A DNA stretch of 64,000 nt, taken from contig CALXKL010000006.1 in NCBI GenBank assembly GCA_944388965.1, forward strand, positions 1 to 64,000, given 5' to 3'. This stretch comes from an uncultured Spirochaetales bacterium (lineage in GTDB: Bacteria > Spirochaetota > Spirochaetia > Sphaerochaetales > Sphaerochaetaceae). The notes below the pieces were generated by a model. That model was given only the letters and a program-made list of their open reading frames with translations. It was not told the DNA's origin and ran no database searches. Below are positions 3,561 through 63,638 of this stretch, piece after piece (position 1 is the first letter of the stretch; each line of letters starts with the position of its first letter). A program made the position numbers and the translations under genes.

Positions 3561-3580
3561 CGGGGGCCCTCGTCGCCTAA

Positions 3581-3606
3581 GAGGGGGCTGCAAGAGCGGC
3601 CCCCTC
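3581..3606 (+). terminator. Hairpin between TAXI receptor and permease
   Basis: GAGGGGGC and GCCCCCTC form an 8-bp GC-rich stem around a 10-base loop, 20 bases after the receptor stop. No T-run follows, so it more likely protects the 3' end of the receptor mRNA or gives partial termination than full termination. This would yield more receptor than permease. Confidence 0.55.
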
Positions 3607-3632
3607 CTCTATTCTCTAGACTGGAGGAAGTT

Positions 3633-5636
3633 TTGAAAGAGAACAAGGACAAGGAATACATTGACGAATCAGTAGGTACCATGGCCGACGTCGAGGCCGT
3701 GATGAAGAAATACGACAGGGAGTCGAACGTAAGAATCTGGGAAGGGCTTCCCAGGACGATCATCCACTACCTGATGGCGGCGTTCGCCATCTACTGCATC
3801 ATAGACGCCATCTTCCTGACCACGCTGCAGGAGGTGCGCTACTCGGTCTTCATGGGCATGATCGTGCTTCTAGGCTTTCTCACGTTCCCGGTGAGGAAGG
3901 GAGTCGAGCGCGTCAACCACATGCCATGGTATGACATCATCATGATGGTCGTGGGCGCAGGGGCCTACTTCTTCTACGCCGCCAACGCCATGACGGTGAT
4001 CAGGATGTCGGCAAGGATCATGGCCGATCCGCTGTTCATGGTGGTCGGAGCGGTCGGCATCCTCGCGCTTGTGGAGCTGTGCCGCCGCTGCGTGGGTCTT
4101 CCCATACTGTGCGTCGCAGGCGCGCTGGTGATCTACACCCTTGCAAGCGGAATCGGGGTCACACAGCTGATCAGGACGCTCTTCTACACGGCCAACGGCA
4201 TCTTCTCCACCCCCGTCGGCGTCTGTGTGAAGTACATCGTCATCTTCATCATCTTCGGCGCGTTCCTGGAGCGCACCGGAGTCGCCGACTTCTTCATCCG
4301 CTTCGCCAACACGGCGGTCGGACGCTTCACCGGAGGACCTGCAAAGGTCGCGGTCGTGGCCTCCGCCCTCGAGGGCATGGCCTCGGGCTCCTCGGTGGCC
4401 AACACCGTCGGCTCCGGCTCGATCACGATCCCGATGATGAAGAAGATGGGCTACAGGCCGGAGTTCGCGGCCGCAGTCGAGGCCGCGGCCAGCACGGGAG
4501 GCCAGATCATGCCCCCGATCATGGGAGCGGCGGCCTTCCTCATGGCCGAATTCACGGGAATCCCGTACGGACGGATCGCAGTCATGGCCATCCTGCCGGC
4601 GGTGCTCTATTTCACCGGCATCTTCATCGCCGTGCACCTGGAGGCCAAGAGAAGCGGGATGCAGGGAATCCCCAGGGAGCACCTGCCCAAGGTGAAGGAC
4701 CTGCTCAAGGAGCTATACCTCCTGCTTCCCCTCATCGCACTGATCTATCTGGTGGGCACGAACACGTTCACCATGGCATACTCGGCCACGCTGTCCATCC
4801 TAGTCGCGATGGTCGTCGGCGTGATCCACAACATCGTCCCGCACTTCACGGCCACCACCGACGGAGGCGAGGAGGAGGAAGCCGGACAGAAGCCCGCCCT
4901 CTCCTTCCGCTGGATACTCGATGCGTTCGAGAACGGCGCCCGCAGCTCGATCACGGTCGTCGTCGCATGCGGAATCGCAGGCATCATCTCGGGCTGCATC
5001 ACGGTCACCGGACTCGCATCCATCCTGCTGGGCGCCATCGTGTCGCTGTCCCACGGCATCGTGATGATCGCCCTGGTGCTGACGATGCTGTGCTGCATCG
5101 TCCTGGGCATGGGCGTTCCGACGACCGCCAACTACTGCATCATGGCAGGCGTGTGTGCACCGATTCTGATAGCACTTGGAGTCGAGCCTGTGGCGGCCCA
5201 CTTCTTCGTCTTCTACTTCGGCATCGTCGCGGACATAACCCCGCCTGTGGCCCTGGCCGCATACGCGGGCAGCGCCATCGCGAAGTCGAATCCGATGAGG
5301 ACGGGACTCGTCGCAACGAAGCTGGCGATTGCCGCCTTCGTCGTGCCATACGTGTTCGCGTTGAACCCCGCGATGCTCTTCGTGAACGTTACAAGCGTGT
5401 TCGAGGTCTGCCAGATCTGCGTGACCGCGCTTCTGGGCATCTTCGGCATAGCCGCCGCGCTGAACGGCTACCTGGGCCGCCAGCTCGGCATCCTGACGCG
5501 GATCATACTCGCCGCCGCAGGACTGTGCATGGTCGTTCCCGGCACGATCACCGACATGATAGGACTCGTGGTCCTGGTGCTCGTGGTCGTCTACGAATAC
5601 GGCATGAAGCGCAAGAGCCAGATCGCGAAGGCCTGA
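3633..5636 (+). CDS. TRAP transporter fused permease (4TM-12TM)
   Basis: A 667-residue polytopic membrane protein of the TAXI-linked TRAP family in which the small DctQ-like and large DctM-like subunits are fused. The start is a TTG at 3633, chosen because GGAGG lies at 3623-3627 and the cytoplasmic N-terminus begins there. The conserved DctM core includes GMASGSSVANTVGSGSITIP, ASTGGQIMPPIMGAAAF and GMGVPTTANYCIMA. It works with the receptor encoded upstream to import an organic acid using an ion gradient. The gene ends just before a strong hairpin and is convergent with an ABC transporter. Confidence 0.92.
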   Translation: MKENKDKEYIDESVGTMADVEAVMKKYDRESNVRIWEGLPRTIIHYLMAAFAIYCIIDAIFLTTLQEVRYSVFMGMIVLLGFLTFPVRKGVERVNHMPWYDIIMMVVGAGAYFFYAANAMTVIRMSARIMADPLFMVVGAVGILALVELCRRCVGLPILCVAGALVIYTLASGIGVTQLIRTLFYTANGIFSTPVGVCVKYIVIFIIFGAFLERTGVADFFIRFANTAVGRFTGGPAKVAVVASALEGMASGSSVANTVGSGSITIPMMKKMGYRPEFAAAVEAAASTGGQIMPPIMGAAAFLMAEFTGIPYGRIAVMAILPAVLYFTGIFIAVHLEAKRSGMQGIPREHLPKVKDLLKELYLLLPLIALIYLVGTNTFTMAYSATLSILVAMVVGVIHNIVPHFTATTDGGEEEEAGQKPALSFRWILDAFENGARSSITVVVACGIAGIISGCITVTGLASILLGAIVSLSHGIVMIALVLTMLCCIVLGMGVPTTANYCIMAGVCAPILIALGVEPVAAHFFVFYFGIVADITPPVALAAYAGSAIAKSNPMRTGLVATKLAIAAFVVPYVFALNPAMLFVNVTSVFEVCQICVTALLGIFGIAAALNGYLGRQLGILTRIILAAAGLCMVVPGTITDMIGLVVLVLVVVYEYGMKRKSQIAKA

Positions 5637-5658
5637 ATCCAGACACATGTGCAATGAC

Positions 5659-5688
5659 ACGAAGGGGACCCATGCAGGTCCCCTTCGT
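5659..5688. terminator. Bidirectional hairpin terminator
   Basis: A 12-bp perfect stem (ACGAAGGGGACC and complement) with a 6-base loop CATGCA sits between the convergent permease and ABC ATPase genes. The T-tracts are weak on both sides. Confidence 0.65.
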
Positions 5689-5709
5689 CGTATCCGTCGG
5701 CGTTGCCGG

Positions 5710-6462
5710 TCACTGTCCGTAGCCGGAAAGAAAGCGTCGCGTCCTCTCATTCGCCGGATCGGTGAAGAGCGAATCACCCTCGCCCTCCTCGACCACGAGG
5801 CCGCCGTCCATGAACATGACCTTGTCGGAGATCCCCTTCGCGAAATCCATCTCGTGCGTCACGACCACCATCGTCATGCGCTCGCTCCTCAGATCCCTTA
5901 TGACGGAAAGGATCTCCTTGGTCAGCTCCGGATCCAGTGCGCTCGTGGGTTCGTCGAAGAAGAGTATCTCGGGGTCCATGGCAAGGGCGCGCGCGATGGA
6001 CACGCGCTGTGCCTGGCCGCCGGAAAGCTGGCAGGGGTAGCTGGAGGCCTTGTCCTCCAGACCCATCTTCCGCAGCAGCTCCATCGCCTTCACCTCGCTC
6101 TCATCGCGTCCTCTCTTCAGCACGGCGCGCTGGGCCTCCGTGATGTTCCTGAGCACCGAGAAATGAGGAAAGAGGTTGAAGTTCTGGAACACGAGCCCCG
6201 TCTTCCTTGCGATAGGCTGTCCGTTCGCCCTGTCGTAGACACACCCCTCGGAGCCGTCGTGGAACAGCGTCAGCCCGTCCACCACGAGGCTTCCTCCATC
6301 CGCCCTCTCCAGCTGGGTGACGATCCTCAGCAGGGTGCTCTTCCCGCTGCCGGAAGGACCTATCACGGACAGAACCTGGGCACGATCCAAGGTGAACGAC
6401 ACGCCCTTGAGCACCTCGAGCCCCGAAAACGACTTTCTTATGTCATGCGCTTCAAGCATCAT
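5710..6462 (-). CDS. Polar amino acid ABC transporter ATPase
   Basis: A 250-residue ATPase of the GlnQ/HisP type that powers import by the adjacent permease. Walker A is GPSGSGKST (about residues 35-43), the signature is LSGGQAQR, Walker B is ILFFDEPTSALDPEL, and the switch histidine is in VVVTHEMDFA. Length is normal for the family. The start ATG follows GGAGG at a good distance; a second ATG directly follows it. It is the last gene of a three-gene operon (binding protein, permease, ATPase) transcribed leftward and ends at a shared hairpin. Confidence 0.93.
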   Translation of the reverse strand: MMLEAHDIRKSFSGLEVLKGVSFTLDRAQVLSVIGPSGSGKSTLLRIVTQLERADGGSLVVDGLTLFHDGSEGCVYDRANGQPIARKTGLVFQNFNLFPHFSVLRNITEAQRAVLKRGRDESEVKAMELLRKMGLEDKASSYPCQLSGGQAQRVSIARALAMDPEILFFDEPTSALDPELTKEILSVIRDLRSERMTMVVVTHEMDFAKGISDKVMFMDGGLVVEEGEGDSLFTDPANERTRRFLSGYGQ

Positions 6463-48067: not shown

Positions 48068-49417
48068 CTACAGCCAGAGGCTTGCAAGGAAGGTTCCGAA
48101 CAGACCTCCAAGAGCCATGACGGGACCGGAGAGCGAAAGGGTCTTGAGCCCTCCCCTCAAATCGTATCCCATGCAGTTCGTGAACACCCAGAAGAAACTG
48201 TCGTTGACATGGCAGCATGCCCTGGCGCCGGCACCGGATGCCATGAAGATCAGGATCGGGTTCAGCCCGAGTGCGGATGCAATCGGAGCACACAGCGTCG
48301 CCGCAGTCGTGACCGCAACCGTTCCAGAGCCCTGGACGATCTTCAGTATGGCGGAGATGACAAACGGAATCAGAATGAACGGAAGACCGGTGTTGATCAC
48401 CATGGATGCCAGGTCTGCACCTGCTCCGGACACGCTGAGGACCTCGCCGAGAGATCCGCCGGCTGCCGTGATGAACACGATGGGACCGGCTTCCTTGAGC
48501 GACTTGTCAACGACCTTCATGACCGTATCCTTGCCCATCCTCTTTCCAAGGAAGACGACTGCAAGCAGTGCGCCGATCGCCAGAGCCACGTTCGCATCGC
48601 CGATGAAAGACGTGATGGCGACCATGATGGAGTCCTCCGGCAGGAGCATCGAACAGGTCGTGTTTCCGACGATAAGGAGCAAGGGCAACACCAGAGGAAG
48701 GATACTCGCAAGGGTTCCGGGAAGATCCTTGTCATCCATCAGGTCCTTGCCGTCGCTTATCTCCTTCTCCTCCTTCTGCTCTGCGTCATCACGCCAGCTG
48801 TAGTAGGAATCCGGCTTGTTCTTGAAGAAGAGGTGTGCGAACACCGTTCCGAACAGCGTCATGAACACCGCCGCGAACGCTCCGTAGAGAATCGCCTCTC
48901 CGATGTCGATTCCCAGAAGGCCTGCAGCTGCAAGCGGACCGGGTGTAGGCGGTACATACACGTGGGTCGCCAGAAGGCCCGAGGCGAGGCTGACCGCGAG
49001 TATGGCAAGAGGAATCCTCGTCTTCTTGTGGATCGACTTCACAAGCGGTGTGAGGATGACCATTGCGGCATCAGAGAACACGGGGATCGAGATGATGTAG
49101 CCGCAGATGGACATCGCGATTCCGCTTCTCTTCTGGCCGACCAGTCGGACCGTATCCAGCGCCATCCTGTTGGTGGCCTTGGACGCATCCAGGTAGTTGC
49201 CCAGCATGATGCCGAAGATGATGACGATACCGATGCTTTCGACTGTTCCGGCGAAACCTGCGGTTATCGTCTCGACGATCTCGACTCCACCCATGCCTGT
49301 GAGAGCACCGAAGACGAGAGCCGTGACAAGCAGCGAGATGAACGCGTTGACCTTGAACACGACACACAGCACCATCAATACAGCGATTCCAATCAGGAAT
49401 ACCAAAATCGGTGGCAT
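48068..49417 (-). CDS. GntP family permease
   Basis: A 449-residue inner-membrane carrier of the GntP/GenP family, which imports gluconate or other hydroxy acids with protons. Typical segments are GYIISIPVFSDAAMVILTPL, LLATHVYVPPTPGPLAAAGL, VFITAAGGSLGEVL and VQGSGTVAVTTAATLCAPIA. It begins 1 bp after the LeuD-type gene and is the last gene of a three-gene leftward operon. Context suggests the imported acid is a 2- or 3-hydroxy acid processed by the dehydratase encoded upstream. Confidence 0.9.
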   Translation of the reverse strand: MPPILVFLIGIAVLMVLCVVFKVNAFISLLVTALVFGALTGMGGVEIVETITAGFAGTVESIGIVIIFGIMLGNYLDASKATNRMALDTVRLVGQKRSGIAMSICGYIISIPVFSDAAMVILTPLVKSIHKKTRIPLAILAVSLASGLLATHVYVPPTPGPLAAAGLLGIDIGEAILYGAFAAVFMTLFGTVFAHLFFKNKPDSYYSWRDDAEQKEEKEISDGKDLMDDKDLPGTLASILPLVLPLLLIVGNTTCSMLLPEDSIMVAITSFIGDANVALAIGALLAVVFLGKRMGKDTVMKVVDKSLKEAGPIVFITAAGGSLGEVLSVSGAGADLASMVINTGLPFILIPFVISAILKIVQGSGTVAVTTAATLCAPIASALGLNPILIFMASGAGARACCHVNDSFFWVFTNCMGYDLRGGLKTLSLSGPVMALGGLFGTFLASLWL

Positions 49418-49418
49418 T

Positions 49419-49928
49419 TCATTCCTCCTTTTTTCCGAATCTCTTGCGCATGAGGGGCTTTATCCCTCCTGCCTCGAGGATTTTCAAAGCCTGGTCGCCG
49501 AGCTTCTCGCAGGTGTAGACCTTACCGGTCTCCTCGACGCGAAGCGTACCCTCGGCGATGTCCAGATCCAGCGTCTGGCCGCTCTGTACCGCCTCTCCGA
49601 TGCCCTTGCAGACTATCAACGGCAGTCCCAGGTTGATCGCATTGCGGTAGAAGATCCTTGCGAACGACTCGGCCACGACCGCGGCTACACCCATGTTGAT
49701 CAGGGCGATGGCGGCATGCTCACGCGACGAGCCGCAGCCGAAGTTGCGTCCTGCAACGACTATGCCTCCCTTCGGGAAGCTGGCGGCGATGCCTTCATCC
49801 ACGCCGCACAGACAGTGGCTGCCGATCTCCTTCGGATCGGTGATGGCCAGGAACCGTCCCGGGTATATCTGGTCGGTATCGATGTTGTTTCCGACGACTA
49901 TCGTCCTTCCATTGATTCTCGTCTCCAT
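49419..49928 (-). CDS. LeuD-type hydro-lyase small subunit
   Basis: A 169-residue small (swivel-domain) subunit of an aconitase-superfamily dehydratase (VGNNIDTDQIYPGRFLAIT, VVAGRNFGCGSSREHAAIAL, FARIFYRNAINLGLPLIV). With the large subunit it adds or removes water from a hydroxy acid such as isopropylmalate, citramalate or 2,3-dimethylmalate. No leuA or leuB is nearby, and it is co-transcribed with a permease, so a catabolic hydroxy-acid role is more likely than leucine synthesis. Confidence 0.88.
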   Translation of the reverse strand: METRINGRTIVVGNNIDTDQIYPGRFLAITDPKEIGSHCLCGVDEGIAASFPKGGIVVAGRNFGCGSSREHAAIALINMGVAAVVAESFARIFYRNAINLGLPLIVCKGIGEAVQSGQTLDLDIAEGTLRVEETGKVYTCEKLGDQALKILEAGGIKPLMRKRFGKKEE

Positions 49929-49938
49929 CTCCGCCTCC

Positions 49939-51198
49939 TTACAGATACTCTCTCGGGTCGGTTATGCGGCCGTTGAGAATGCTCGCGGCAACCGTCGCCG
50001 GGCTGGCCAGATAGATCTTCGCCTCGGTCGAACCCATTCTTCCGGGGAAGTTCCTGTTGGTGCTCGTTATGCATGTCTCGCCTGGAGCCAGAACACCTTC
50101 ATGTGCTCCGAGACAGGCTCCGCAACCTGGTGTGCTTATGGTCGCTCCGGCCTGCATGAGACTCTGGATATATCCCTTCTGGATACAGGAGAGCATCACC
50201 TCAGAGGACGCCGGCACGACGACCAGACGTGCATATTCAGGGATGTGCCTTCCCTCGAGGATCTTCGCCGCAACGGCGATGTCCTCCTCCCTTCCTCCTG
50301 TGCAGCTTCCGATATACCCCTGATCCAGTCTGACCTCGCCGGCCCTGACCACATCCTCTAGCGGCGAGACATTGTCGACGCTGTGCGGGCAGGAGAGCTG
50401 CGGCCCGATCGAGGACACGTCGAATACATAGGACTCGGAATACTCGTAGCCGGGATCCGTATGGACGACCTCGTATGGCCTGACCGCCCTCTTCGAGACG
50501 TAGTCCAGAACATCCTGGTTGGGCTGCATGTATGCGGTTTTGGCGCCCATTTCGACCGCCATGTTGCAGATGACCATCCTTCCGGCGACGTTCAGCGACT
50601 CCACATAGCTTCCGGTGAAGTCGATCGCCTTGTAGACGGCGCCATCCGCCTTGATGCGGCCGAGGACATTGAGAATGACGTCCTTGGGGAACACGCCCTT
50701 CGGAGCCTTTCCCTCGAGACGGACCTCTATGACCTCTGGAACGCGGAACCAGAGCTCTCCGGTCATCAGGATCGTCGCCATGTCCGTGGCGCCGACCCCG
50801 GTGCCCATGGCTCCGAAGGCTCCATGTGTCGTGGTATGGCTGTCGGTCGCGACGACGATCATGCCGGGATAGATCACTCCGGCCTCGGGCATGACCTGAT
50901 GGCAGACGCCGCAGTTCGTGTCGAAGTGGAACTTCAGCCCGTTCTTCCTGGCGAACTCCCTCATCTCCCCCTGGTTCTTGGCGCTCTTCATGTCAGGAGC
51001 CGGGGCGTAGTGGTCGAAGACGAAGGCACAACGGGTGTTGTCCCAGACATTCTCCCCGCCCATCTCATAGAAGGAGTAGACCGTCTGTAGATACAGGTCG
51101 TTGATTTCGGCGAAGTCGACCTTGGCGGTCACGATCTCGCCTGTAGTCACCGAGCTTCTGCCACTGTTGCGCGCCAGAATCTTTTCGATTGCGTGCAT
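49939..51198 (-). CDS. LeuC-type hydro-lyase large subunit
   Basis: A 419-residue large subunit of the aconitase/isopropylmalate isomerase family that holds a 4Fe-4S cluster. Ligand cysteines are in YIGSCTGGREEDIAVA and STPGCGACLGAHEG. Other motifs are VVATDSHTTTHGAFGAMGTG and SCPHSVDNVSPL. The start ATG follows AAGGAGG; upstream frame overlaps the control region. It is the first gene of an operon with LeuD-type subunit and GntP, and is divergent from a GntR-family regulator. The length and type agree with the archaeal-like LeuC/2,3-dimethylmalate dehydratase group. Confidence 0.9.
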   Translation of the reverse strand: MHAIEKILARNSGRSSVTTGEIVTAKVDFAEINDLYLQTVYSFYEMGGENVWDNTRCAFVFDHYAPAPDMKSAKNQGEMREFARKNGLKFHFDTNCGVCHQVMPEAGVIYPGMIVVATDSHTTTHGAFGAMGTGVGATDMATILMTGELWFRVPEVIEVRLEGKAPKGVFPKDVILNVLGRIKADGAVYKAIDFTGSYVESLNVAGRMVICNMAVEMGAKTAYMQPNQDVLDYVSKRAVRPYEVVHTDPGYEYSESYVFDVSSIGPQLSCPHSVDNVSPLEDVVRAGEVRLDQGYIGSCTGGREEDIAVAAKILEGRHIPEYARLVVVPASSEVMLSCIQKGYIQSLMQAGATISTPGCGACLGAHEGVLAPGETCITSTNRNFPGRMGSTEAKIYLASPATVAASILNGRITDPREYL

Positions 51199-51228
51199 TT
51201 GACCCTCCTTTTCAGTGCATTTTGTATT

Positions 51229-51238
51229 TTGTATACAA
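51229..51238. promoter_or_regulatory. GntR-type operator TTGTATACAA
   Basis: A 10-bp perfect palindrome in the divergent region between the hydro-lyase operon and the gntR gene. TNGTNNNACNA-like palindromes are the usual sites of FadR-subfamily (FCD) GntR regulators. It lies just downstream of the operon's predicted -10, where bound repressor would block transcription. Confidence 0.6.
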
Positions 51239-51254
51239 TATTCAATCCAATTCC

Positions 51255-51282
51255 ACCCTATCACACATCCACAGGTTGTCAA
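51255..51282 (-). promoter_or_regulatory. Putative promoter of hydro-lyase operon
   Basis: On the minus strand a perfect TTGACA (51277-51282) is followed after 16 bases by TAGGGT (51255-51260), a poor -10. A promoter with a strong -35 and weak -10 is typical of controlled operons. Confidence 0.45.
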
Positions 51283-51365
51283 GAGGAAAAGTTCAGCATG
51301 GAGAAGTCCTGCCACACTTCCATCCATGCCTTGTATTTGTTACCTTTTCTCCTTAGGAGATATTG

Positions 51366-52004
51366 ATGGAAACCCTCGAGATCATGCCCGTAAGGGTCAA
51401 AGTCACGGCAGTGCTCAAGAAGGCCATCCTTTCAGGGGAATACAAGAAGGGCGAACAGCTCAGCCTCACGGATGTGGCCAACACCCTCGGCGTCAGCAGG
51501 ACGCCGGTCCGGGAGGCGTTCCAGGCCCTCGAGGCGGAAGGCCTGATAAAGCTGCGCATGAACAGAGGTGCCATCGTAAAGGGAGTTGACGAGAAGTTCA
51601 TACGCGACCACTACGAGATGAGGGCCCTCATGGAGGGCGAGGCCGCAGCCAGGGCCGCAGCCAGGGGAATGGACGTCACCGCCCTTCTTACCGAAGTGAA
51701 GGAGGCAAAGGAAAGGGAGTCCTTCGTCAACAAGGACTACTACGAGGACCTGAACCAGAGGATCCATACCGCCATATGGAAGGCGGCGGACAACCAGAGA
51801 CTCTATGCCTACCTGCTGAGCCTGTGGAACGGGCCGAGCATCGGCAAGACCACCAGCGCCAGCGACCACTACAGGATATCGACGGACGAGCACATCGCGA
51901 CGCTCGAGGCGATAGGTGCGAAGAACGGGGAAGGCGCCCGTCGCGTAATGGTGGACCATATCACGAGAAGCATGGACAACATACTGGCAGGCCTGAAGAA
52001 ATAG
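51366..52004 (+). CDS. GntR-family (FCD) transcriptional regulator
   Basis: A 212-residue regulator with an N-terminal winged helix (KVTAVLKKAILSGEYKKGEQ, LSLTDVANTLGVSRTPVREA) and a C-terminal FCD ligand domain. The FCD domain has the usual metal/acid-binding Asp, Asn and His positions around YEDLNQRIHTAIW and DEHIATLEAI. The start ATG follows TTAGGAGA. It is divergent from the hydro-lyase/GntP operon and very likely represses it until a hydroxy acid is present. It ends in a hairpin before the ROK gene. Confidence 0.9.
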   Translation: METLEIMPVRVKVTAVLKKAILSGEYKKGEQLSLTDVANTLGVSRTPVREAFQALEAEGLIKLRMNRGAIVKGVDEKFIRDHYEMRALMEGEAAARAAARGMDVTALLTEVKEAKERESFVNKDYYEDLNQRIHTAIWKAADNQRLYAYLLSLWNGPSIGKTTSASDHYRISTDEHIATLEAIGAKNGEGARRVMVDHITRSMDNILAGLKK

Positions 52005-53780: not shown

Positions 53781-54878
53781 CTATGCCATCTCGCTCTCGA
53801 GCAGGGCCAGGATGAACGGCCCGACGCCCTTGAAGTCGTCACGCTTCTGAGGCTCGAGGAAATAGTACTTGAGAGAACCGTCGCGGTACGGGTTGCCACC
53901 AAGTCCTGCGACCGAACATATTCCATCCAGATGATAAATGCCGTTCTCGTCGCATGTCAGGTAGACCCTCTTGATTCCTTCGATGGCCTTCCTGCCGTAC
54001 TCCAGGTACGAAGCATCGAGAATACCCTTGCGCACGCCCTTGTAGTACAGATACGCGAACATGGACGTTCCGCTCGTCTCGAGGTAGTTGCCGACACTGT
54101 CCTGGCAATCGGGGACCTGGTACCACAGGCCGCTCTCGCTCTGGAACGGAACGAGGGCCTCGGCAAGGGAGCGCACGATCTCGTTGATGCGTGCCCTCTT
54201 CGGGTGATCCAAGGGCGTATAGTCCAGCACATCCAGTAGCGCCATGCCGTACCAGCCGATCGAACGGGACCAGAAATGCGGACTCAGGCCTGTCTCGATG
54301 TCGCTCCAGCGCTGGCCGCGCGACTCGTCGTACGCATGATAGAGAAGGCCTGTCTTCTCATCACGCAGCGTTTCATATGTCAGGATCAGCTGGTTGAGGA
54401 CATCATCCAGCTCATCGGCATCGTCATGTCTCTTTGCGTATTCGGCGTTGAACGGTCCCTGCATGTACAGGCCGTCCAGCCAGATCTGCCAGGGGTAGAT
54501 CTCCTTGTGCCAGTAGACCCCGCTGCGTGTGCGCGGCTGGTGGATCAGCTGGCTTCTGAGCCGGTCGGAGGCCAGGGCGAACCTCTCCTCCCCGCTCCTG
54601 TCGTACAGAGGGAACAGGGCGCGACCTGCATTGATCTGGTCGAGGTTGTATTCGCCTTCCCTGTATGTGGCGATCGTCCCATCGGGTCCGATGAGCCTGT
54701 CGTACATCGAGTAGACCCACGGGTAGATGGAATCGTCCTTGTGCCATTCGGCACTCCTGAGAGATGCATAGAGCACCAGTCCGTGCTCATAGTGCCACAG
54801 CATCATGCCCGGTCTGTAATAGCTCTCCACGCTCTTGGCGATCGCCAGGGACAGGGGCATCCGGCTTGTCTGTCTCAT
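53781..54878 (-). CDS. GH105 unsaturated (rhamno)galacturonyl hydrolase
   Basis: A 365-residue glycoside hydrolase of family GH105 (YteR/YesR-like). It removes the unsaturated uronic acid from the end of oligosaccharides produced by pectin or rhamnogalacturonan lyases. The (alpha/alpha)6 barrel is indicated by repeated helices; the likely catalytic Asp is in PWQIWLDGLYMQGPFNAEYA. Other family stretches are PHFWSRSIGWYGMALLDVLD and YLETSGTSMFAYLYYKG. No signal peptide is present, so it acts inside the cell on imported oligosaccharides. It is the last gene of the transporter operon. The start at 54878 is chosen for spacing to AAGGAAGG. Confidence 0.9.
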   Translation of the reverse strand: MRQTSRMPLSLAIAKSVESYYRPGMMLWHYEHGLVLYASLRSAEWHKDDSIYPWVYSMYDRLIGPDGTIATYREGEYNLDQINAGRALFPLYDRSGEERFALASDRLRSQLIHQPRTRSGVYWHKEIYPWQIWLDGLYMQGPFNAEYAKRHDDADELDDVLNQLILTYETLRDEKTGLLYHAYDESRGQRWSDIETGLSPHFWSRSIGWYGMALLDVLDYTPLDHPKRARINEIVRSLAEALVPFQSESGLWYQVPDCQDSVGNYLETSGTSMFAYLYYKGVRKGILDASYLEYGRKAIEGIKRVYLTCDENGIYHLDGICSVAGLGGNPYRDGSLKYYFLEPQKRDDFKGVGPFILALLESEMA

Positions 54879-54900
54879 CTTCATCCTTCCTTGTCTGAAA

Positions 54901-54928
54901 CGATGGCCGACAATAGTGCCGGCCATCG
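54901..54928 (-). terminator. Intra-operon hairpin after binding-protein gene
   Basis: CGATGGCC and GGCCATCG form an 8-bp stem with a 12-base loop between the binding-protein gene and GH105. No T-run is present. It is the third case in this window of a hairpin directly after a transporter receptor gene. Confidence 0.5.
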
Positions 54929-54954: not shown

Positions 54955-56526
54955 TCAGCGGACAAGTCCGTTCTCCTGGGCATATGCGACACCCTGTGCA
55001 TTCCAGTCGGCTCCGCCGATGGCGTTGAACTGGTCGAGGAACGCCTGCCAGTTCTCCGGGGTGAGCGCTCTCTGTCCGGAGAGGAACTCCGCCAGGGACT
55101 GCTCGTAGTAGCGCTGGACATCGGCGTTGGGGGTGGGCATCTGGCCGCTTCCGATGGCTGCCGTCCAGTACTTGGACTGCATCTCGCGAAGAGCGGTGAG
55201 AGCGGACATCGTCTTTCCGGAAGTCGCCGTCGTGTAGGTCGGGTAGCGGCTCGCAAGCTCGGTGTCGGAGTTGTAGAAGACCATGTTCCTGAGCTGGGTG
55301 TAGACCTGGCCCTGGGTGCCGCTGAACGCGTTGTCGCCGAGGTCTCCGGCAACGGGGACGCCGTTCTCGTCGAGCACGTAGTTGACGCCCTCCTGGCCCC
55401 ATCCGCACAGGAAGTATCCTTCGTCGCTGCTCATCCACTCAAGCAGTTCGCAGATCTTCTCGGCCTTGCCGGCGTCGACCGCATCCTGGCTCATGGCGTA
55501 GATCCTGTAGTTCTGGTCATAGGCTCCGACGGAGGCCAGTCCTTCCGGTCCCTTGGGAGGATCGACGATGATCCACTCGCCATCGGGGAAGTTGGCGTCG
55601 AACGGTGCGTAGTTGGCCTCTGCAGCGTAAGCGGCGTTCTGCTCCTTCATGATGCCGAACCTGCCCTGCTTCCATGCAGCGCGGAAGTCGTCCTTCTTGT
55701 AGGTCAGCCAGTTGGGGTCCATGACGCCCTCTTCGCACATCTGGCGGATGTAGACCATAGCATCGTAGAACTCGGGCTTGTAGACGTTCAGGCCGAGGTT
55801 CTCCTCCTCGAGGCACCACAGCCCGTCGACGCCGAATGCACCGAGGATCGGGAACAGACGTGCTCCGGGATAGCCCTTGAGCGTCGCGTCGGACTCGATG
55901 TAGGCACCGTAGCCATATGTGTCGTCCTTGCCGTTTCCATCGGGATCGTCATAGGTGAAGGCGATCATGACCTCCATCAGCTCGTCGAGGTTCGTGGGGA
56001 CCTCGAGACCGAGGTTGTCCAGCCAGTCCTTCCTGATCAGCAGGCCCTCGTTCTTGGCGACGGAACCGGGAGATGCGAAGCCGTAGCTGTGGCCGTCGAT
56101 GGTGCTCATGGCGATCGAGTCGGCATCATACTGCTGAGCCGTGCGGTTGGGCATCAGGGCATAGTAGTCGTCCACAGGAGCGACGAGGCCCTGGTCGACG
56201 AGACGTGTGAGGACGGGGCGGCTGACCATGAACAGGTCGGGAAGGCTGTTGCCTGCGGCCGCGGCCTGGATCCTGACGTCCTGGTCGCTCTCGTTGGAGG
56301 GCAGAACGCTCAGATGCAGATCGATTCCATGCTCCTCGCGAAGGATGTCGTAGCCCACCCAGTCGTCGGGGATGGGTCCTGCCTCGGTGATGGCAGCGCC
56401 ATACCAGAGGTTGATCGTCACCGTACCATCGGCGTTGACCGCCGTGGTCTTCTCGGAACCACCGGCCGCGAAGACGACCGTACAGGCCATCAGTGCGACG
56501 AGAAGCAGAGAGAGTAGTCTTTTCAT
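54955..56526 (-). CDS. Oligosaccharide ABC binding protein (LplA/YtcQ-type)
   Basis: A 523-residue exported family 1 solute-binding protein. The start ATG follows GGAGG and the signal peptide ends in CTVVFAAGGSEK. The size and motifs such as DGHSYGFASPGSVAKNEGLL, IRKDWLDNLGLEVPTNLDEL and WEQ/GWGQEGVNYVLDENG fit the large LplA/YtcQ group that binds uronic-acid-containing oligosaccharides. It shares an operon with two permeases and GH105, so the likely ligand is an unsaturated galacturonan or rhamnogalacturonan oligomer. The ATPase is not in the operon, as usual for these systems, which share an MsmX-like ATPase. Confidence 0.9.
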   Translation of the reverse strand: MKRLLSLLLVALMACTVVFAAGGSEKTTAVNADGTVTINLWYGAAITEAGPIPDDWVGYDILREEHGIDLHLSVLPSNESDQDVRIQAAAAGNSLPDLFMVSRPVLTRLVDQGLVAPVDDYYALMPNRTAQQYDADSIAMSTIDGHSYGFASPGSVAKNEGLLIRKDWLDNLGLEVPTNLDELMEVMIAFTYDDPDGNGKDDTYGYGAYIESDATLKGYPGARLFPILGAFGVDGLWCLEEENLGLNVYKPEFYDAMVYIRQMCEEGVMDPNWLTYKKDDFRAAWKQGRFGIMKEQNAAYAAEANYAPFDANFPDGEWIIVDPPKGPEGLASVGAYDQNYRIYAMSQDAVDAGKAEKICELLEWMSSDEGYFLCGWGQEGVNYVLDENGVPVAGDLGDNAFSGTQGQVYTQLRNMVFYNSDTELASRYPTYTTATSGKTMSALTALREMQSKYWTAAIGSGQMPTPNADVQRYYEQSLAEFLSGQRALTPENWQAFLDQFNAIGGADWNAQGVAYAQENGLVR

Positions 56527-56578
56527 TTTTACCTCCATTTGAAGAATCGGATTTCTCCTTTTCAGTTTCCGGAATATG

Positions 56579-57517
56579 TCAACCCTTGACCGCTCCGACC
56601 ATCGTACCCTTGGTGAAGTACTTCTGGATGAACGGATAGGCTATGACCATTGGGATTGCGCTCATGAACACCGATGCCGCCTTGATGGCCTCGATGGGAG
56701 CGTTGCCGAATGCGCTGACCTCGACGTACTCGTTCATGCCGGCCGCCATGAGGATGTTCCTCAGCAGGATCGGCAGCGGGTTGAGGTTGCTGTCCTGGAT
56801 GTACAGCATGGCGTTGAAGAAGTTGTTCCAGAACGACACGCCGTAGTACAGTCCGATCGTCATCACGATCGCCTTGGACAGCGGCATCACTATCCTCATC
56901 AGGATCTGGACCTCCGAACAGCCGTCGATGCGCGCGCTCTCCTTGAGCTCGGCGGGGATGCCGTCGAAGAACTGTCTCATGATGATGACGTTGTATGTGG
57001 AAATCGCACCAGGAAGGAAGACCGCGGCGAGGTGGTCCATCAGCCCGATGTTCTGCACGAGGAGGTAGGCCGGTATCATGCCTACGTCGAACACGTACGG
57101 AATCAGGACGATGGTCGTGAGGATCTTCCTGCCCGGCAGCGACTTCACCGACATCACGTAGGCCAGGGGGATGGTCAGTATGAGGGCGCAGAAGACGCCT
57201 CCCACGAGGATCTTCAGGCTGTTGGTGAACGCCATGAGGAAGCCGTTGTTTCCAAGCAGCGCCTTATAGGCGTCGAAAGACCAGTCCCAGGGGGCCAGGA
57301 ACATGCCCTCGAGGTATGTTCCGATATATGTGTTCGGACGGAACGACAGTGTCACCGTCGACCACAGCGGGATCAGGATGATGATGAGCATGAGGACCAT
57401 GAACACGTCGACCACGATCTGGAAGACCTTGTCGGCCCTGGTGGGACGTACCGTGCTGTTGTGCATCTTGGGCTTGAGATGCACCCTCTCCTTCTTCTTT
57501 GCAGTTGCTTCAGCCAT
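56579..57517 (-). CDS. CUT1 sugar ABC permease (YtcP/LplC-type)
   Basis: A 312-residue inner-membrane permease with six predicted helices and the EAA loop ELKESARIDGCSEVQILMRIVMP. The opening FMVLMLIIILIPLWSTVTLSF and LAPWDWSFDAYKALLGNNGF are typical of LplC/YtcP proteins. It pairs with the LplB-type permease encoded 14 bp upstream and with the binding protein downstream to import pectin oligosaccharides. Confidence 0.92.
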   Translation of the reverse strand: MAEATAKKKERVHLKPKMHNSTVRPTRADKVFQIVVDVFMVLMLIIILIPLWSTVTLSFRPNTYIGTYLEGMFLAPWDWSFDAYKALLGNNGFLMAFTNSLKILVGGVFCALILTIPLAYVMSVKSLPGRKILTTIVLIPYVFDVGMIPAYLLVQNIGLMDHLAAVFLPGAISTYNVIIMRQFFDGIPAELKESARIDGCSEVQILMRIVMPLSKAIVMTIGLYYGVSFWNNFFNAMLYIQDSNLNPLPILLRNILMAAGMNEYVEVSAFGNAPIEAIKAASVFMSAIPMVIAYPFIQKYFTKGTMVGAVKG

Positions 57518-57531
57518 TGCGTTACCCCCTG

Positions 57532-58473
57532 TCAGAAGAGTGAAGAGCCTTCACTGAATTTCGAGACGAGTCTGTTGGACACGAGCACAAGCAGCATTCC
57601 GATGATGCCCTTGAACAGTCCCACAGCGGTGGCAAGGCCGAACTGGAAGTTGAGCAGTCCCTGTCTGTACACCCAGGTGTCGATGATGTCGGCCACGGAG
57701 TAGACCTGCGGGCTGTACAGCATGTACATCTGGTTGAATCCCGCGTCGAGGATCGTTCCGATCTTCAGCAGCAGGACGGTGACGATGACCGGCTTGATCG
57801 ACGGCAGGGTTATGTAGCGCACCCTCTGCCAGCTGTTGGCACCCTCGACCATGGCGGCCTCGAAGAGGGAGACGTCGATGTTCATCAGGGCGGCGATGAA
57901 GATGATCGCAGACCATCCCATCTCCTTCCAGGCATCCGACAGCAGGACCACCCAGGGGAAGGCCTTGACCGACGACAGGAAGTCTATCGGCGTGCCGCCG
58001 AACAGCTTGATGATGTCGTTCAGGATTCCGGACGAGGGCGAAAGCAGGGCGAACAGGACGCCGTACATGATGACCCAGCTGAGGAAGTGTGGAAGATACG
58101 CAAGCGTCTGCACGGTCTTGCGAAGCGCGTAGTGCGTGCACTCGTAGATCGCGATCGAGAGTATGATCGAGACCGGCAGACTTATTATTATCTTTCCGAA
58201 GGAATAGAACAGCGTGTTCCTGAGAAGCTCCCAGAAGTAGAAGCTGTTGAAGAAGTCCTGGAAGTTCTGGAAACCGATCCAGGCCGATCCGATCACGCCG
58301 TCACGCGCGCGGAAGTCCTTGAAGGCGATCTGCGCGTTGAAGATCGGAACGTACTTGAAGACAATGTAGAACACAAACGGAATCAGAAGCAGGAGATACA
58401 CGTCCTTGTGTCTGACGATCTCGCGCTTCAGATTCGGCTTGGGCACCGTAATCGCAGCGTCTTTCCTTTGCAT
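57532..58473 (-). CDS. CUT1 sugar ABC permease (LplB/YteP-type)
   Basis: A 313-residue permease with six helices and the EAA loop EAAMVEGANSWQRVRYITLP. YLLLLIPFVFYIVFKYVPIF and AYLPHFLSWVIMYGVLF are typical of LplB/YteP. It is the first gene of the pectin transporter operon; a purine-rich GAGGTGG lies before the ATG. The upstream region holds two copies of TTGCACAAAA, probable sites of the adjacent hybrid regulator. Confidence 0.92.
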   Translation of the reverse strand: MQRKDAAITVPKPNLKREIVRHKDVYLLLLIPFVFYIVFKYVPIFNAQIAFKDFRARDGVIGSAWIGFQNFQDFFNSFYFWELLRNTLFYSFGKIIISLPVSIILSIAIYECTHYALRKTVQTLAYLPHFLSWVIMYGVLFALLSPSSGILNDIIKLFGGTPIDFLSSVKAFPWVVLLSDAWKEMGWSAIIFIAALMNIDVSLFEAAMVEGANSWQRVRYITLPSIKPVIVTVLLLKIGTILDAGFNQMYMLYSPQVYSVADIIDTWVYRQGLLNFQFGLATAVGLFKGIIGMLLVLVSNRLVSKFSEGSSLF

Positions 58474-58520: not shown

Positions 58521-58530
58521 TTGCACAAAA
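58521..58530 (+). promoter_or_regulatory. TTGCACAAAA motif, copy 1
   Basis: The 10-mer lies 48 bases before the LplB-type gene start. The same 10-mer recurs at 58616, and one-mismatch versions at 61904 and 61933. Candidate site of the AraC-type output domain of the neighbouring regulator. Confidence 0.45.
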
Positions 58531-58615
58531 TTGTAAAATTCAGACTTCCGCACCGCGGGACAGGCGGACGGAAGAGAGGAAGACACCTCATGAAACAGGC
58601 TGGACCGCATACGGA

Positions 58616-58625
58616 TTGCACAAAA
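58616..58625 (+). promoter_or_regulatory. TTGCACAAAA motif, copy 2
   Basis: An exact direct repeat of 58521-58530, 95 bases away (about nine DNA turns), just beyond the end of the hybrid regulator gene. Confidence 0.45.
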
Positions 58626-58644
58626 ACGAACTTGTTCCGTCCGG

Positions 58645-61600
58645 CTACCTGCGCACCTTGCCGGGAGCGACGCCGACGATCTTCTTGAACACGCGGCAGA
58701 AGTACGCCTGGTCCTGGAAGCCCGTCTCGCTGGCCACCTCGTTTATCGTCTTGCCGCTTGTCCTGAGAAGCGTCATGGCGAGCTGGATGCGGTAGCGGTT
58801 CAGGTAGTCCCACGGCGAAATGCCCATGTCCTTCTTGAATATCCTCGTCAGATAGTCCTCGGAGATGTTCACGCTGTCCGCTATCTGCCAGCGGCTTATC
58901 TGGGAGCAGGCATGCCTGTTCAGGAAGGCTATGGCCCGCTTGACCAGGGCGCCTGTCAGGGGCGGAAGCACCTGGCCTCCGGCATACACCCCTATCAGGC
59001 GCGAGATGAACTCGTCCGATTCGCATATCGCGGTGTTGCAGATCAGCAGTGACGGCTGGTCGACTATGGACTCGACATCCTCCATGCCGAAATGGTCGCA
59101 AACGATCAGGATCGGCGAGGAGGCGCAAAGCCTGTCATGCCTGAGCGTGTCCACGAGATGCGCATCGCAGCGGTCGAGGATGACCAGCGACGGCGTCTCG
59201 CGCACATCGCCCATCATCGTCTCGAAGCTGTCGTAGGACAGTCTGCGTCCGAAGGCATCCAGACGCGACAGGGCCTCTGGCAGAGAGCCCAGCGTCAGTA
59301 TGGCCTCTCCATGGCCATGCCCGCCGGAGTGGACCGATGCGCAAAGGCTCGTCCACAGGTCGCCTTCGTATGATGGGAGTCCGGTGCACAGGAACGGCAG
59401 GTCGCGCGTGCTCTGATGACCATGCAGCAGATTGAGCACGAAGGCGTCCCCGTCTCCGGGCGACGACGCATCATAGGCAATCTGAGTGAGGTTGTCGGGC
59501 AAGGTGAACGAGGATGCCAGAGTCGCGCTGTCCACCACCTGGACCTGGCTGAAGCCGTCCAGCCATGAGGGAGGAGGCGTCCCGACATCTCCACGCAGGA
59601 ACATCATGGTCCCGTAGCCGGGATCCACATGCACCCCCGACAGCGTGGGCCATGGAAGGAGAACCATGACTCCATGCTCCTTGAAGTGGAACGATCCGGA
59701 CATCAGGACGACCGTACGCTCGGCCAGCTGCAGCGCCGGGTTGTTGCGCACGAGATTCGGATGCCAGCGCTCCACATGGAAGGATATCATCAGGCCCACA
59801 GGCGCGTTCTGTACCAGAATGTCGACATGGTCCCGTCCGCCCGACTCCAGCGCGATGTCACGCAGGATATCGAGAACATGCTCCAGCTTGGCCATGTCGG
59901 TGTACAGCGCCGGCACCTGCTTCGGCATCGACATGCCCTCGAGAGAACGCCGCGAGGCGTAGTCTGTGAGGAACGCCGTCATGTCGACGAGCGTCGGCTC
60001 CACCTCCACCTCCCCCTTCTCCGTCAATACCAGGTCCAGCAGATGCTCGGCCTTCACCAGACTTGGAAGAGCATCCTGACGGACCTTCGGGTCCTGGCTT
60101 GAGGCAAGCGTCCGGCGGATTGCGGACAGCGGCTCCCTCAGCTCTTCGGAGACGTTCGCGTAGAACTCCTTGTTCGTCCTCTCCGCGTTCTCCGCCAGGA
60201 TCCTGGCTCTTCCGGCCTCCTCTAGAAGAGTGATGCCCTTGATCGCGGATGCGATCGAGGCCATGACGTCCTCGATCAGCGCGGCCTTGTGCCGCCTGTC
60301 GACCTCCAGGACCAGATGTCCTATGCACTCGCTGTCGCTGATGACGGGCTCCACGACATAGGCGCCGCTGTCGAGCAGTGCGTCATAGCGCGGCGGAAGC
60401 AGACGGGGATACGGGAAGTCCTCCGGCTCCAGCCTCTCGGATATCTGGTTGTAGCCGGCGACGAGCCTGCTGGTCACCCCGTCCCTGTCCATCGCCAGAT
60501 ACGCCTGCCTGAAGCCGAGCTGTACAAGGTATTCATGCATTGCACCCGAAAGGCCGTCCATCGTCCTGGTCGACAGGAGGGCCATCTTGAATCCGTTGAG
60601 GGTGTTGGTAAGCCCTATCCTCTCGTATTCCACCCTGCCGGCATGGTGGACGCTTGTCTCCAGCACCACCCTGTGCAGGTTCTTCTGGCAGAAGTCCCTC
60701 ACCTCCGGCGAGAGCGGAAGCAGGATGGAGAACCAGTGGAACACCTCCACCAGGTCGTCGACCTCGCCCCCCGTGGAGAAGTAGTTGCGGCAGATCATGG
60801 CAAAGCGCGAGAGGAAGTTGTCCTTCTCCCTTGCGCTGGGGTTCTCCAGCCTGGTCGCGTACTCGGTGAAGTACTCCAGGTCCTCCCTCCTGATGCGCCC
60901 GGCGCAGAAGGCCATGGCCCAGGAGACGAAGGAGGAGGCGTCCCCGATGACCCTGGATGCGGCCTCCGGTCCACCGAAGGAGTCGATGCAGCCGCACGAA
61001 CGTCTGACCACGAGGTCTGATGCCAGGCGTATGTCTTCGCAGGACGCGTTTCCATCCAGCATGGACAATATCGTCCTGGCCGCGCTGTCCATCATGGCGG
61101 CGGCAGGCATCCTGACCGTCGAGGGAGGCACGGACAGGAGCTTGTTGGAGTCGTTGTCGTTGAAGCCGCCGACCGCCACGGATGAGGGGATGTTCACCCC
61201 CAGCTCCTCAAGTCGTCTGACGGCATCAAGCATCATCAGGTCCGAGGCGCAGACCATGGCATCGAAGTCCAGGGACGGCACCAGGCCCCGCGTGTGCATG
61301 ATCTCGTCAAGGGCCTGCCTCCCCTCGCCCCATGGGTACGGGCTTGACACCAGGTCCGGGTCGTACTGCACCCCGCAGTCCCTCACGGCATCGCAGTAGG
61401 CCCTGTAGCGCTCCTGACTCGAGGAGTGGTTCTCGGGACCGCGCAGGTAGACGATCCTCTTTCGCGAATGCACCCTTATCATGTGGCACACGAGGTCGTA
61501 GAAGCCCTGGTAGGCGTCGAAGTCCACAAGGGGGATGCCGGGGCCGACCTTGAGACCGATCGTCACGGTCGGGATGCCGGAAAAGCGCTCCATGAACGAG

Positions 61601-61854
61601 CACACGTCCTGCACGCTGGCATCCCCCGTCAGGGAGCTGGTCCAGGCCACCAGACCGTCCATGTTCTGTGCACATGCGAAGTCGTATATCCGGTTGCGCA
61701 GGTATTCGTCATGACCTCTGTAGCCCAGCCTTCCACCCGGGATGATGAAGACGGCCTGTCCCGTGGTGTCGAAGGAGTTCAGACAGCGCCGCCACATGCG
61801 CACGCTGGTCCCCTCGTGTATCGATGCCAGGATGAATGCCACTCGTCTGCCCAT
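58645..61854 (-). CDS. Hybrid LacI-sensor/AraC-output regulator
   Basis: A 1069-residue one-piece regulator. Residues 1-295 form a LacI/periplasmic-binding-like sugar sensor (GRRVAFILASIHEGTSVRMW, IPSSVAVGGFNDNDSNKLLS). About 420-545 look GAF-like. At 563-583 EFYANVSEELREPLSAIRRT mimics a histidine-kinase dimerisation helix, but the phospho-accepting His is replaced by Glu570; a kinase ATPase-like fold follows to about 735 without clear N and G boxes. About 765-950 resemble receiver-like alpha/beta units. Residues about 970-1069 are an AraC helix-turn-helix pair (ISRWQIADSVNISEDYLTRI, TINEVASETGFQDQAYFCRV). It lies between the pectin transporter operon and the divergent uxaBA, and probably activates both on binding uronate-derived ligand. 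Confidence 0.88.
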   Translation of the reverse strand: MGRRVAFILASIHEGTSVRMWRRCLNSFDTTGQAVFIIPGGRLGYRGHDEYLRNRIYDFACAQNMDGLVAWTSSLTGDASVQDVCSFMERFSGIPTVTIGLKVGPGIPLVDFDAYQGFYDLVCHMIRVHSRKRIVYLRGPENHSSSQERYRAYCDAVRDCGVQYDPDLVSSPYPWGEGRQALDEIMHTRGLVPSLDFDAMVCASDLMMLDAVRRLEELGVNIPSSVAVGGFNDNDSNKLLSVPPSTVRMPAAAMMDSAARTILSMLDGNASCEDIRLASDLVVRRSCGCIDSFGGPEAASRVIGDASSFVSWAMAFCAGRIRREDLEYFTEYATRLENPSAREKDNFLSRFAMICRNYFSTGGEVDDLVEVFHWFSILLPLSPEVRDFCQKNLHRVVLETSVHHAGRVEYERIGLTNTLNGFKMALLSTRTMDGLSGAMHEYLVQLGFRQAYLAMDRDGVTSRLVAGYNQISERLEPEDFPYPRLLPPRYDALLDSGAYVVEPVISDSECIGHLVLEVDRRHKAALIEDVMASIASAIKGITLLEEAGRARILAENAERTNKEFYANVSEELREPLSAIRRTLASSQDPKVRQDALPSLVKAEHLLDLVLTEKGEVEVEPTLVDMTAFLTDYASRRSLEGMSMPKQVPALYTDMAKLEHVLDILRDIALESGGRDHVDILVQNAPVGLMISFHVERWHPNLVRNNPALQLAERTVVLMSGSFHFKEHGVMVLLPWPTLSGVHVDPGYGTMMFLRGDVGTPPPSWLDGFSQVQVVDSATLASSFTLPDNLTQIAYDASSPGDGDAFVLNLLHGHQSTRDLPFLCTGLPSYEGDLWTSLCASVHSGGHGHGEAILTLGSLPEALSRLDAFGRRLSYDSFETMMGDVRETPSLVILDRCDAHLVDTLRHDRLCASSPILIVCDHFGMEDVESIVDQPSLLICNTAICESDEFISRLIGVYAGGQVLPPLTGALVKRAIAFLNRHACSQISRWQIADSVNISEDYLTRIFKKDMGISPWDYLNRYRIQLAMTLLRTSGKTINEVASETGFQDQAYFCRVFKKIVGVAPGKVRR

Positions 61855-61978: not shown

Positions 61979-62007
61979 TTGACAACGGACATATGCGGGT
62001 TTAAAGT
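61979..62007 (+). promoter_or_regulatory. Promoter of uxaBA
   Basis: Consensus TTGACA (61979-61984), a 17-base spacer and TAAAGT (62002-62007, four of six matches). Transcription would start near 62014. Confidence 0.65.
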
Positions 62008-62156
62008 GGAATCATGTTTCATTTCGGGTCTGGACAGCATTTCGACTACATGTCGCATATCATCGGAGAACTCCCGTGTCCACCCGTCTCCAACAGTCCA
62101 TGCGCCGGATCTGTCCGGCAGATGAATACACAACGCATCCACATCAGGAGGATAAG

Positions 62157-63638
62157 ATGAAAGGCATAGTCGAAACAGTGAAGACAGTCGACAGGCCCAT
62201 AAGGGTCCTGCAGTTCGGAGAGGGCAACTTCCTCAGGGCGTTCGTCGACTGGATCGTCGACAATCTCAACGAAAAGGCGGGCTTCGACGGCAACGTCATG
62301 ATGGTCCAGCCGCTTGCAAACGGCATGGGCGACATGATCAACGCCCAGAAGGGTCTGTACACCACCTGCCTCAGGGGCATCCAGAACGGAAAGCCCGTCG
62401 AGGAGTTCAGGCAGATCACGTCCGTCGCGGGCTGCATCAACCCGTACAGCGACTACGACGCGTTCGCCTCCCAGGCCGAGAACCCCGACCTCAGATTCGT
62501 CATCAGCAACACCACCGAGGCCGGAATCGCCTACCACGCGGGAGACAGGCTCGAGGACAGGCCTCAGGTCAGCTTCCCCGGCAAGCTGTGCGCCTTCCTC
62601 TACAGACGCTACAAGGCCTTCGGCGGAGATGCCTCCAAGGGTCTGGTCATGATCCCCTGCGAGCTGATCGACAAGAACGGCGACAACCTCAGGAGGATCG
62701 TCCTTCAGTACGCAGACGAGTGGAAGCTCGAGAAGGGGTTCGTCGACTGGGTCGAGAACGCCTGCGACTTCTGCAACAGCCTCGTCGACCGCATCGTCCC
62801 GGGCTACCCCAGGGCCGAGGCCGACGCCATCTGCCAGAAGCTTGGCTACAAGGACAACCTGATCGACACGGCCGAGATCTTCCACCTATGGGTCATCGAG
62901 TGCCACAGGAGGTCCTATGAGGACGAACTGCCCACTGCGAAGGCAGGACTCAACGTCGTGTGGACCGACGACATGACGTTCTACAGGACGCGCAAGGTGC
63001 GCATCCTCAACGGCACCCACACCATGATGTCGCTGGCATCCTATCTTTGCGGCATCGACACCGTCGAGGACTCCGTCAAGAGCCCTGTGGTCGGCCCCTT
63101 CATGCGCGATGGCCTGTTCAACGAAATCATCCCGTCCATGGACGGCGACGTCGAGGAGCTGAAGAAGTACGCATCCGACGTGCTGGAGAGGTTCGCCAAT
63201 CCGTACATCGAGCACCTGCTGCTGTCCATCTCCCTCAACAGCGTGTCCAAGTTCAAGACCCGCGACCTGCCCTCCGTGCTGGGCTACGTCCAGAAGACCG
63301 GGAGGCTGCCGCAGCACCTGGCGCTGTCGATCGCCGCGCTCATCGCCTTCTACAGGGGCACGGAGTTCGAGGGCGACGCCCTTGTCGGCGACAGGAACGG
63401 AGGAAAGTACCTGATCAAGGACAGCAGGGAGTACCTGGAGACGTTCGCCTCCATCTACGGCGCCCAGCACAAGTGCAACGGCTGCCTGTCCAAGGCCCTT
63501 TGCGACGGCATCCTCACGAAGGAGGACTGGTGGGGCATGGACCTGACGACCATCCCCGGCCTGAGGGACGCGGTCGAGGGCTACCTCGTGAAGATCTTCG
63601 ACGAAGGCATGGAAGCCGCCATCAGGAGCCTTGCATAA
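62157..63638 (+). CDS. uxaB: Tagaturonate reductase (altronate oxidoreductase)
   Basis: A 493-residue member of the mannitol dehydrogenase / polyol-specific long-chain dehydrogenase family that reduces D-tagaturonate to D-altronate with NADH in galacturonate breakdown. The nucleotide-binding start VLQFGEGNFLRAFVDWIVDN and the later RKVRILNGTHTMMSLASYLCG and LERFANPYIEHLLLSISLNS are typical of UxaB rather than UxuB. The start ATG follows AGGAGG. It is 4 bp before uxaA. Fructuronate reductase is the main alternative but context favours UxaB. Confidence 0.92.
   Translation: MKGIVETVKTVDRPIRVLQFGEGNFLRAFVDWIVDNLNEKAGFDGNVMMVQPLANGMGDMINAQKGLYTTCLRGIQNGKPVEEFRQITSVAGCINPYSDYDAFASQAENPDLRFVISNTTEAGIAYHAGDRLEDRPQVSFPGKLCAFLYRRYKAFGGDASKGLVMIPCELIDKNGDNLRRIVLQYADEWKLEKGFVDWVENACDFCNSLVDRIVPGYPRAEADAICQKLGYKDNLIDTAEIFHLWVIECHRRSYEDELPTAKAGLNVVWTDDMTFYRTRKVRILNGTHTMMSLASYLCGIDTVEDSVKSPVVGPFMRDGLFNEIIPSMDGDVEELKKYASDVLERFANPYIEHLLLSISLNSVSKFKTRDLPSVLGYVQKTGRLPQHLALSIAALIAFYRGTEFEGDALVGDRNGGKYLIKDSREYLETFASIYGAQHKCNGCLSKALCDGILTKEDWWGMDLTTIPGLRDAVEGYLVKIFDEGMEAAIRSLA

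Follow-up and report, generated by a model that had tools for sequence, protein, structure and literature searches.

A soluble regulator from an uncultured Spirochaetales bacterium with a predicted dead histidine-kinase core and pseudo-receiver between a LacI-type sensor and an AraC-type domain

The regulator gene at 58645-61854 in the analyzed stretch of 64,000 nucleotides (the window) encodes what is, as judged from its homologues, a decayed cytoplasmic hybrid two-component system. This origin is assigned because seven distant homologues keep all 13 catalytic positions of the phosphorelay, while the full set occurs in none of 98 other sequences, in which only scattered residues of it are found. 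We propose, with a probability of about 0.72, that the protein functions as a soluble one-component regulator of a uronide-uptake operon, which would be independent of phosphorylation, descend from a hybrid two-component system and transmit its signal mechanically.

Domain layout and the degenerate core

The open reading frame lies on the minus strand, starts with ATG and codes for 1069 aa. Matches at E ≤ 1e-20 were obtained in 108 of the 139 genomes of the window's family, many of them full length and with about 30-60% identity. A single near-copy (98% identical) appeared in the scan of genome contigs. Pfam is confident at both ends of the protein only, with Peripla_BP_3 at residues 132-287 (E 6e-20) and HTH_18 at residues 991-1069 (E 7e-22). 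HisKA stayed below the threshold (residues 562-594, E 0.01) and the Pfam scan of the window protein gave no HATPase_c or Response_reg match, so that homologues were needed to judge the middle of the regulator. No transmembrane helix was found by hydropathy. A sugar-type sensor and an AraC output in one soluble chain, as described in the original prediction, were thereby supported.

The LacI/PBP-type ligand sensor comprises residues 1-290 (60985-61854, minus strand like all segments of the gene) and is supported by Pfam, by LacI-family structures in the PDB and by conserved columns. It ends in a conserved S-C-G-C (residues 286-289, 60988-60999), which is almost invariant across the family. The AraC-type double HTH DNA-binding domain (residues 963-1069, 58648-58968) is supported by Pfam and PDB matches. 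Both are separated by about 670 residues of other regions, without a direct join. A conserved pre-kinase region (residues 405-552, 60199-60642) is common to intact and degenerate homologues. A GAF-like part had been suggested next to the sensor, but residues 398-556 gave no GAF match with a PDB profile (one unrelated match, E 0.1), and Pfam reported GAF_2 in only one of 44 members at E 0.11; this assignment is not supported. The pre-kinase region is followed by a pseudo-HisKA with DHp-like helices (residues 553-612, 60019-60198), identified by the sub-threshold Pfam match, a segment HMM and a PDB profile, and by a pseudo-HATPase (residues 613-745, 59620-60018). Next come a truncated receiver-like stretch (residues 746-840, 59335-59619), whose receiver nature was judged by eye and which is also conserved in intact homologues, and the pseudo-receiver (residues 841-962, 58969-59334). 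The order sensor-HisKA-HATPase-REC-HTH is present in the window protein by descent.

For the kinase part, a profile of residues 556-745 was built from 44 degenerate orthologues and run against PDB sequences. It found histidine kinases with a best E of 4e-9, including DivL, RetS and HK853-type proteins. HMMs made from degenerate segments only also matched the intact homologues, at best with E 1.7e-11 for HATPase and 1.8e-8 for HisKA. An AlphaFold model of residues 540-765, calculated from two sequences (the window protein and its near-copy), has low confidence (pLDDT 45); residues 646-737 of this low-confidence model can be aligned over 82 residues to the ATPase domain of EnvZ (Z 9.1, rmsd 2.0). 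The 50 structure matches listed are almost all kinase-type ATPase domains. Glu570 (codon 60145-60147) aligns exactly with the phospho-His column, which verifies the earlier view of a kinase-like helix with Glu in place of the phospho-His. Among 59 aligned orthologues of the window's family, the residue is E in 43, D in 10, Q in 2 and A, G, K or S in one each, and His does not occur. The acidic residue following the site is poorly kept in these orthologues. The N-box Asn is replaced by Ile667, the G-box positions are occupied by V694 and R696, and the ATP lid is deleted. These losses support a dead kinase core without phosphotransfer, as far as sequence can tell. Kinase fold homology, lost catalytic residues and a gene kept under selection were found together, which characterizes a pseudo-histidine kinase.

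The receiver is more remote. A profile of residues 838-966 found mainly response regulators in the PDB, and these weakly (best E 0.003), whereas a receiver-segment HMM from degenerate forms matched the receiver of the intact homologues with a best E of 3.4e-9. Foldseek with a low-confidence model of residues 745-1069, built from the same two sequences, gave matches essentially confined to the AraC part. The acid pair is replaced by G856/S857 and the Lys by Thr941. Asp894 is present in the window protein, but its column contains D in only 13 of the 59 family members. At the level of sequence, this is receiver homology without the phosphorylation residues, that is, a pseudo-receiver. The receiver-like part proposed before was thus recovered, and the proposed loss of phosphotransfer extends beyond the His to the N-box Asn, ATP lid, G boxes, receiver acid pair and Lys. 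Kinase and receiver folds are both traceable by sequence comparison within residues 560-950, their absence from which would have spoken against the prediction; the structure model was useful for the kinase part only.

Intact, degenerate and deleted homologues

Intact homologues were found by searching the phylum, and also the order to which a distant match belongs. Seven full-length distant homologues, L206 (=L128), L207 (=L127), L200, L183, L184, L186 and L185, contain normal HisKA, HATPase_c, Response_reg and HTH_18 domains, and each of the 13 catalytic-motif positions shows the same canonical residue in all seven. Homologues with a retained His would have counted against the proposed exchange, and these seven do carry it, in contrast to the 59 orthologues. 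Since they keep the whole phosphorelay along with it, the His loss is derived, and the exchange is not refuted. A His at this site is also found in L211, which has no HATPase. Elsewhere among the degenerate clades, family f3 and L199 of f4 have S at the site and others N, Q, T, R, G, A or I, while L203 of another family has E once more. Natural deletions were observed in L205 (without HisKA), L211 (without HATPase) and L212 (without both). They show that the catalytic domains can be lost while sensor, receiver-like part and AraC domain stay.

Some relatives combine the domains differently. In one genus, L137-L143 (about 4950-5790) encode stand-alone proteins of 236-266 aa which consist of the pseudo-receiver and AraC domain alone; relatives of the window's transporter genes were not found in the flanking DNA covered. 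In L130 (1968-5714), the sensor is that of the degenerate clade and is fused to a kinase that looks active, to receivers and to a weak Hpt, and an AraC domain is missing. It looks like a case in which a kinase module was swapped in.

A phylogenetic tree was calculated from the columns of the sensor, pre-kinase region and AraC domain, with kinase and receiver left out. In this tree, without outgroup, the intact sequences fall into one supported group of ten together with two degenerate sequences and one deleted one, and two changes are needed for the "intact" state. A constraint holding the intact rows together was disfavoured (p-AU 0.021, for a group named post hoc and in the presence of long branches). 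When outgroups are included, the key nodes have 86-90% support, and one of the outgroup rows (L130) is placed inside. In this tree, several of the degenerate clades take positions outside with moderate support, which would imply several losses if regain is excluded. The phosphate chemistry was probably lost more than once.

The degenerate core has been retained under constraint. The median ratio of dN to whole-gene dS in close pairs was 0.05 for the sensor, 0.03 for the AraC domain and 0.08-0.12 across the pseudo-HisKA, HATPase, mid and receiver segments. Because dN/dS is about 0.1, the dead core is, by this estimate, under purifying selection. Decay as a pseudogene was considered as well and is countered by the low dN/dS and by long open frames in most relatives.

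Operon context and putative operator sites

The regulator gene is followed on the minus strand by genes for two ABC sugar permeases (57532-58473 and 56579-57517; Pfam, synteny), an extracellular solute-binding protein (54955-56538; Pfam SBP_bac_1, synteny) and a GH88-type (PF07470) hydrolase (53781-54926; E 5e-92, synteny), which probably acts on unsaturated uronides. A tagaturonate reductase gene (UxaB-like; 62076-63638) is located divergently on the plus strand (NCBIfam NF002969, 635.7 bits vs. a cut-off of 359). Tagaturonate reductase and a UxaA-like protein are also encoded on this other side of the regulator in many relatives. The order regulator-permease-permease-SBP-GH88 is present in most of the degenerate loci with sufficiently long flanks (e.g., L074, L078 and L063) and also at the intact L206 and L207. 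Some of these operon genes are located near the intact L183, L184, L185, L186 and L200. At the HATPase-less L211, the order regulator-permease-permease-SBP is seen up to the end of the locus, and at L205 and L212 no operon neighbours were found within the flanking DNA covered. Because of this conserved neighbourhood, we infer that the transport substrate is probably an oligo-uronide. A further organic-acid or sugar-acid locus with a GntP permease, an aconitase-family protein and a GntR/FCD regulator is located at 48068-52004.

An expectation-maximisation motif search across the regulator-permease gaps yielded the motif AnGTCTGAAAAnTACAAT, and the shuffled control was far lower. The 18-bp site AxGTCxGAAAAxTACAAT occurs in this gap in families f1, f3 and f8, the HATPase-less L211 included. 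In the window, the putative operator AAGTCTGAATTTTACAAT is located upstream of the permease operon (58530-58547, minus strand) and is the sole match in the whole genome within 3 mismatches. A candidate second site, AGTTCGTTTTTGTGCAAT, which was used in building the second matrix, lies 85 bp away in the same orientation (58615-58632, minus strand); such a repeat pair is no general feature of the relatives. All 35 of 35 gaps (f1, f3, f4 [L199] and f8) have a match on the operon strand, a count which is partly circular as most of them helped to build the matrices, and about 1 in 10 shuffled gaps also matches at the same threshold. Sites outside the f1 training set (L135, L134, L199 and L211) score 21.7-26.8, compared to 11.1 for the 99% level of random 500-mers. 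The site was also searched near the intact homologues and not found there. In the divergent promoter region between the regulator and the tagaturonate reductase gene, a near-palindrome, AAATGAAACATGATTCCA (62007-62024, minus strand), is conserved in many relatives. It resembles a KdgR box, which is a tentative assignment.

Signal transmission and relation to known systems

According to the proposed mechanism, the LacI-like domain would bind a ligand, which is probably a uronide derived from degraded pectin. The conformational change would be relayed by the dead kinase helices and the pseudo-receiver without phosphate and would alter how the AraC domain binds DNA at the putative site upstream of the permease genes, where the regulator may act as an activator of the operon. 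Kept mechanical coupling had been part of the original prediction, and a core retained under purifying selection fits this, although the signal only presumably runs through it. The dead core could instead have a passive role in spacing or dimerisation, and the existence of kinase-deleted members shows that it is not always needed. The deletion of HisKA and HATPase in L212, of HATPase in L211 and of HisKA in L205 is what would be expected if pseudokinase and pseudo-receiver served only as a dimerisation scaffold or spacer and control were exerted by the position of the sensor, as in XylR, whose structure (4fe4) matches both end domains. We consider this rather unlikely, in view of the low dN/dS over the dead core and its invariant or near-invariant columns, which include F564, P575 and D653.

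A different role was suggested for Glu570 itself, namely a built-in imitation of phosphohistidine which holds the DHp helices in a phosphorylated-like state, with the sensor releasing or strengthening this state. The H188E variant of DesK reportedly served as a phosphohistidine mimic. This variant was crystallised (PDB titles 3gie and 3gif), and E or D is present in 53 of the 59 orthologues of the window's family, with E recurring in L203 outside it. However, degenerate clades outside this family have S, N, R, G, Q, T, A or I at the site although their operon is largely the same, column 570 takes rank 36 among 201 columns by conservation when similar residues are merged, and there is no evident receiver for such a mimic to act on, because the receiver is without acid pair and Lys. 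A general phosphomimic was thus rejected, within the window's family this role is a weak possibility, and as an explanation of the regulator it appears improbable. The regulator could conceivably be controlled in trans, by a separate kinase or a partner protein, after the precedent of DivL, which reads DivK~P (PMC4211667), and Asp894 is retained in the window protein, in whose genome 14 proteins have a HATPase match over the cut-off. Against such an intermediary role, for which we see very little chance, stand the rarity of D in the Asp894 column, the lost acid pair and Lys, and the immediate neighbourhood in the window, in which we noticed no conserved kinase gene.

Our preferred reading, the mechanically coupled one-component regulator, has relatives among known systems. 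In XylR of E. coli, a LacI-type sensor moves the AraC domain and no phosphorylation is needed. It shares the first and last domain, the cytoplasmic location and the function in sugar regulation, but has no kinase or receiver remnant between the domains, with chains of 392-412 aa vs. 1069 here (PDB 4fe4, 4fe7). The hybrid two-component systems of Bacteroides also combine sensor, HisKA, HATPase, receiver and AraC domain in one chain and belong to polysaccharide operons; their receiver restrains the AraC domain until it is phosphorylated (PMC11253607). They are membrane proteins with an active kinase, whereas the window protein is a soluble chain which has a LacI sensor and lacks the catalytic motifs. 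DivL keeps the kinase fold with a replaced phospho-His and functions without kinase activity (PMC4211667), a lack which is predicted for the window protein. In DivL, the N, G1, F and G2 boxes are still present and the regulator that it reads is a separate protein, while here boxes and ATP lid have been lost and the output belongs to the same chain. Pseudo-receivers without acid pair, Lys or conserved Asp have been described, and a review of 2025 (PMC12632262) regards the way in which they are switched as a mystery. The one described here differs by being located in the same chain as a pseudokinase and, without a PF00072 match, is likely to lie outside a PF00072-based survey.

Pseudokinases (DivL, PMC4211667), pseudo-receivers (PMC12632262) and LacI-AraC regulators are thus already known. 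In the open-access literature, we found no paper on this protein family and no description of a family in which one soluble chain contains both dead modules throughout and which has intact and deleted counterparts at the same type of operon. The His is missing in only 0.9% of HisKA domains (PMC12632262), compared to a whole widespread family lacking the His and the receiver residues here. Intact, dead and kinase-deleted homologues, several of which are located at the same type of operon, make up a natural series. With it, one can ask what is transmitted by kinase and receiver folds when phosphate plays no part. Repeated independent loss of the chemistry on the same kind of uronide-uptake operon, with the signal still running through the dead kinase and receiver, is a tentative reading to which we give somewhat less than even odds. 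If true, two-component systems would revert to one-component systems and retain their transmission parts as pure mechanics.

LacI-type sensors were also observed with another output. L133 (1151-5047) encodes a LacI-type sensor, HisKA, HATPase, receiver and SpoIIE phosphatase in one chain of 1299 aa, and L151 (57-5170) encodes two adjacent proteins with LacI-type sensors (847 and 854 aa), of which the one scanned (2630-5170) contains a SpoIIE domain.
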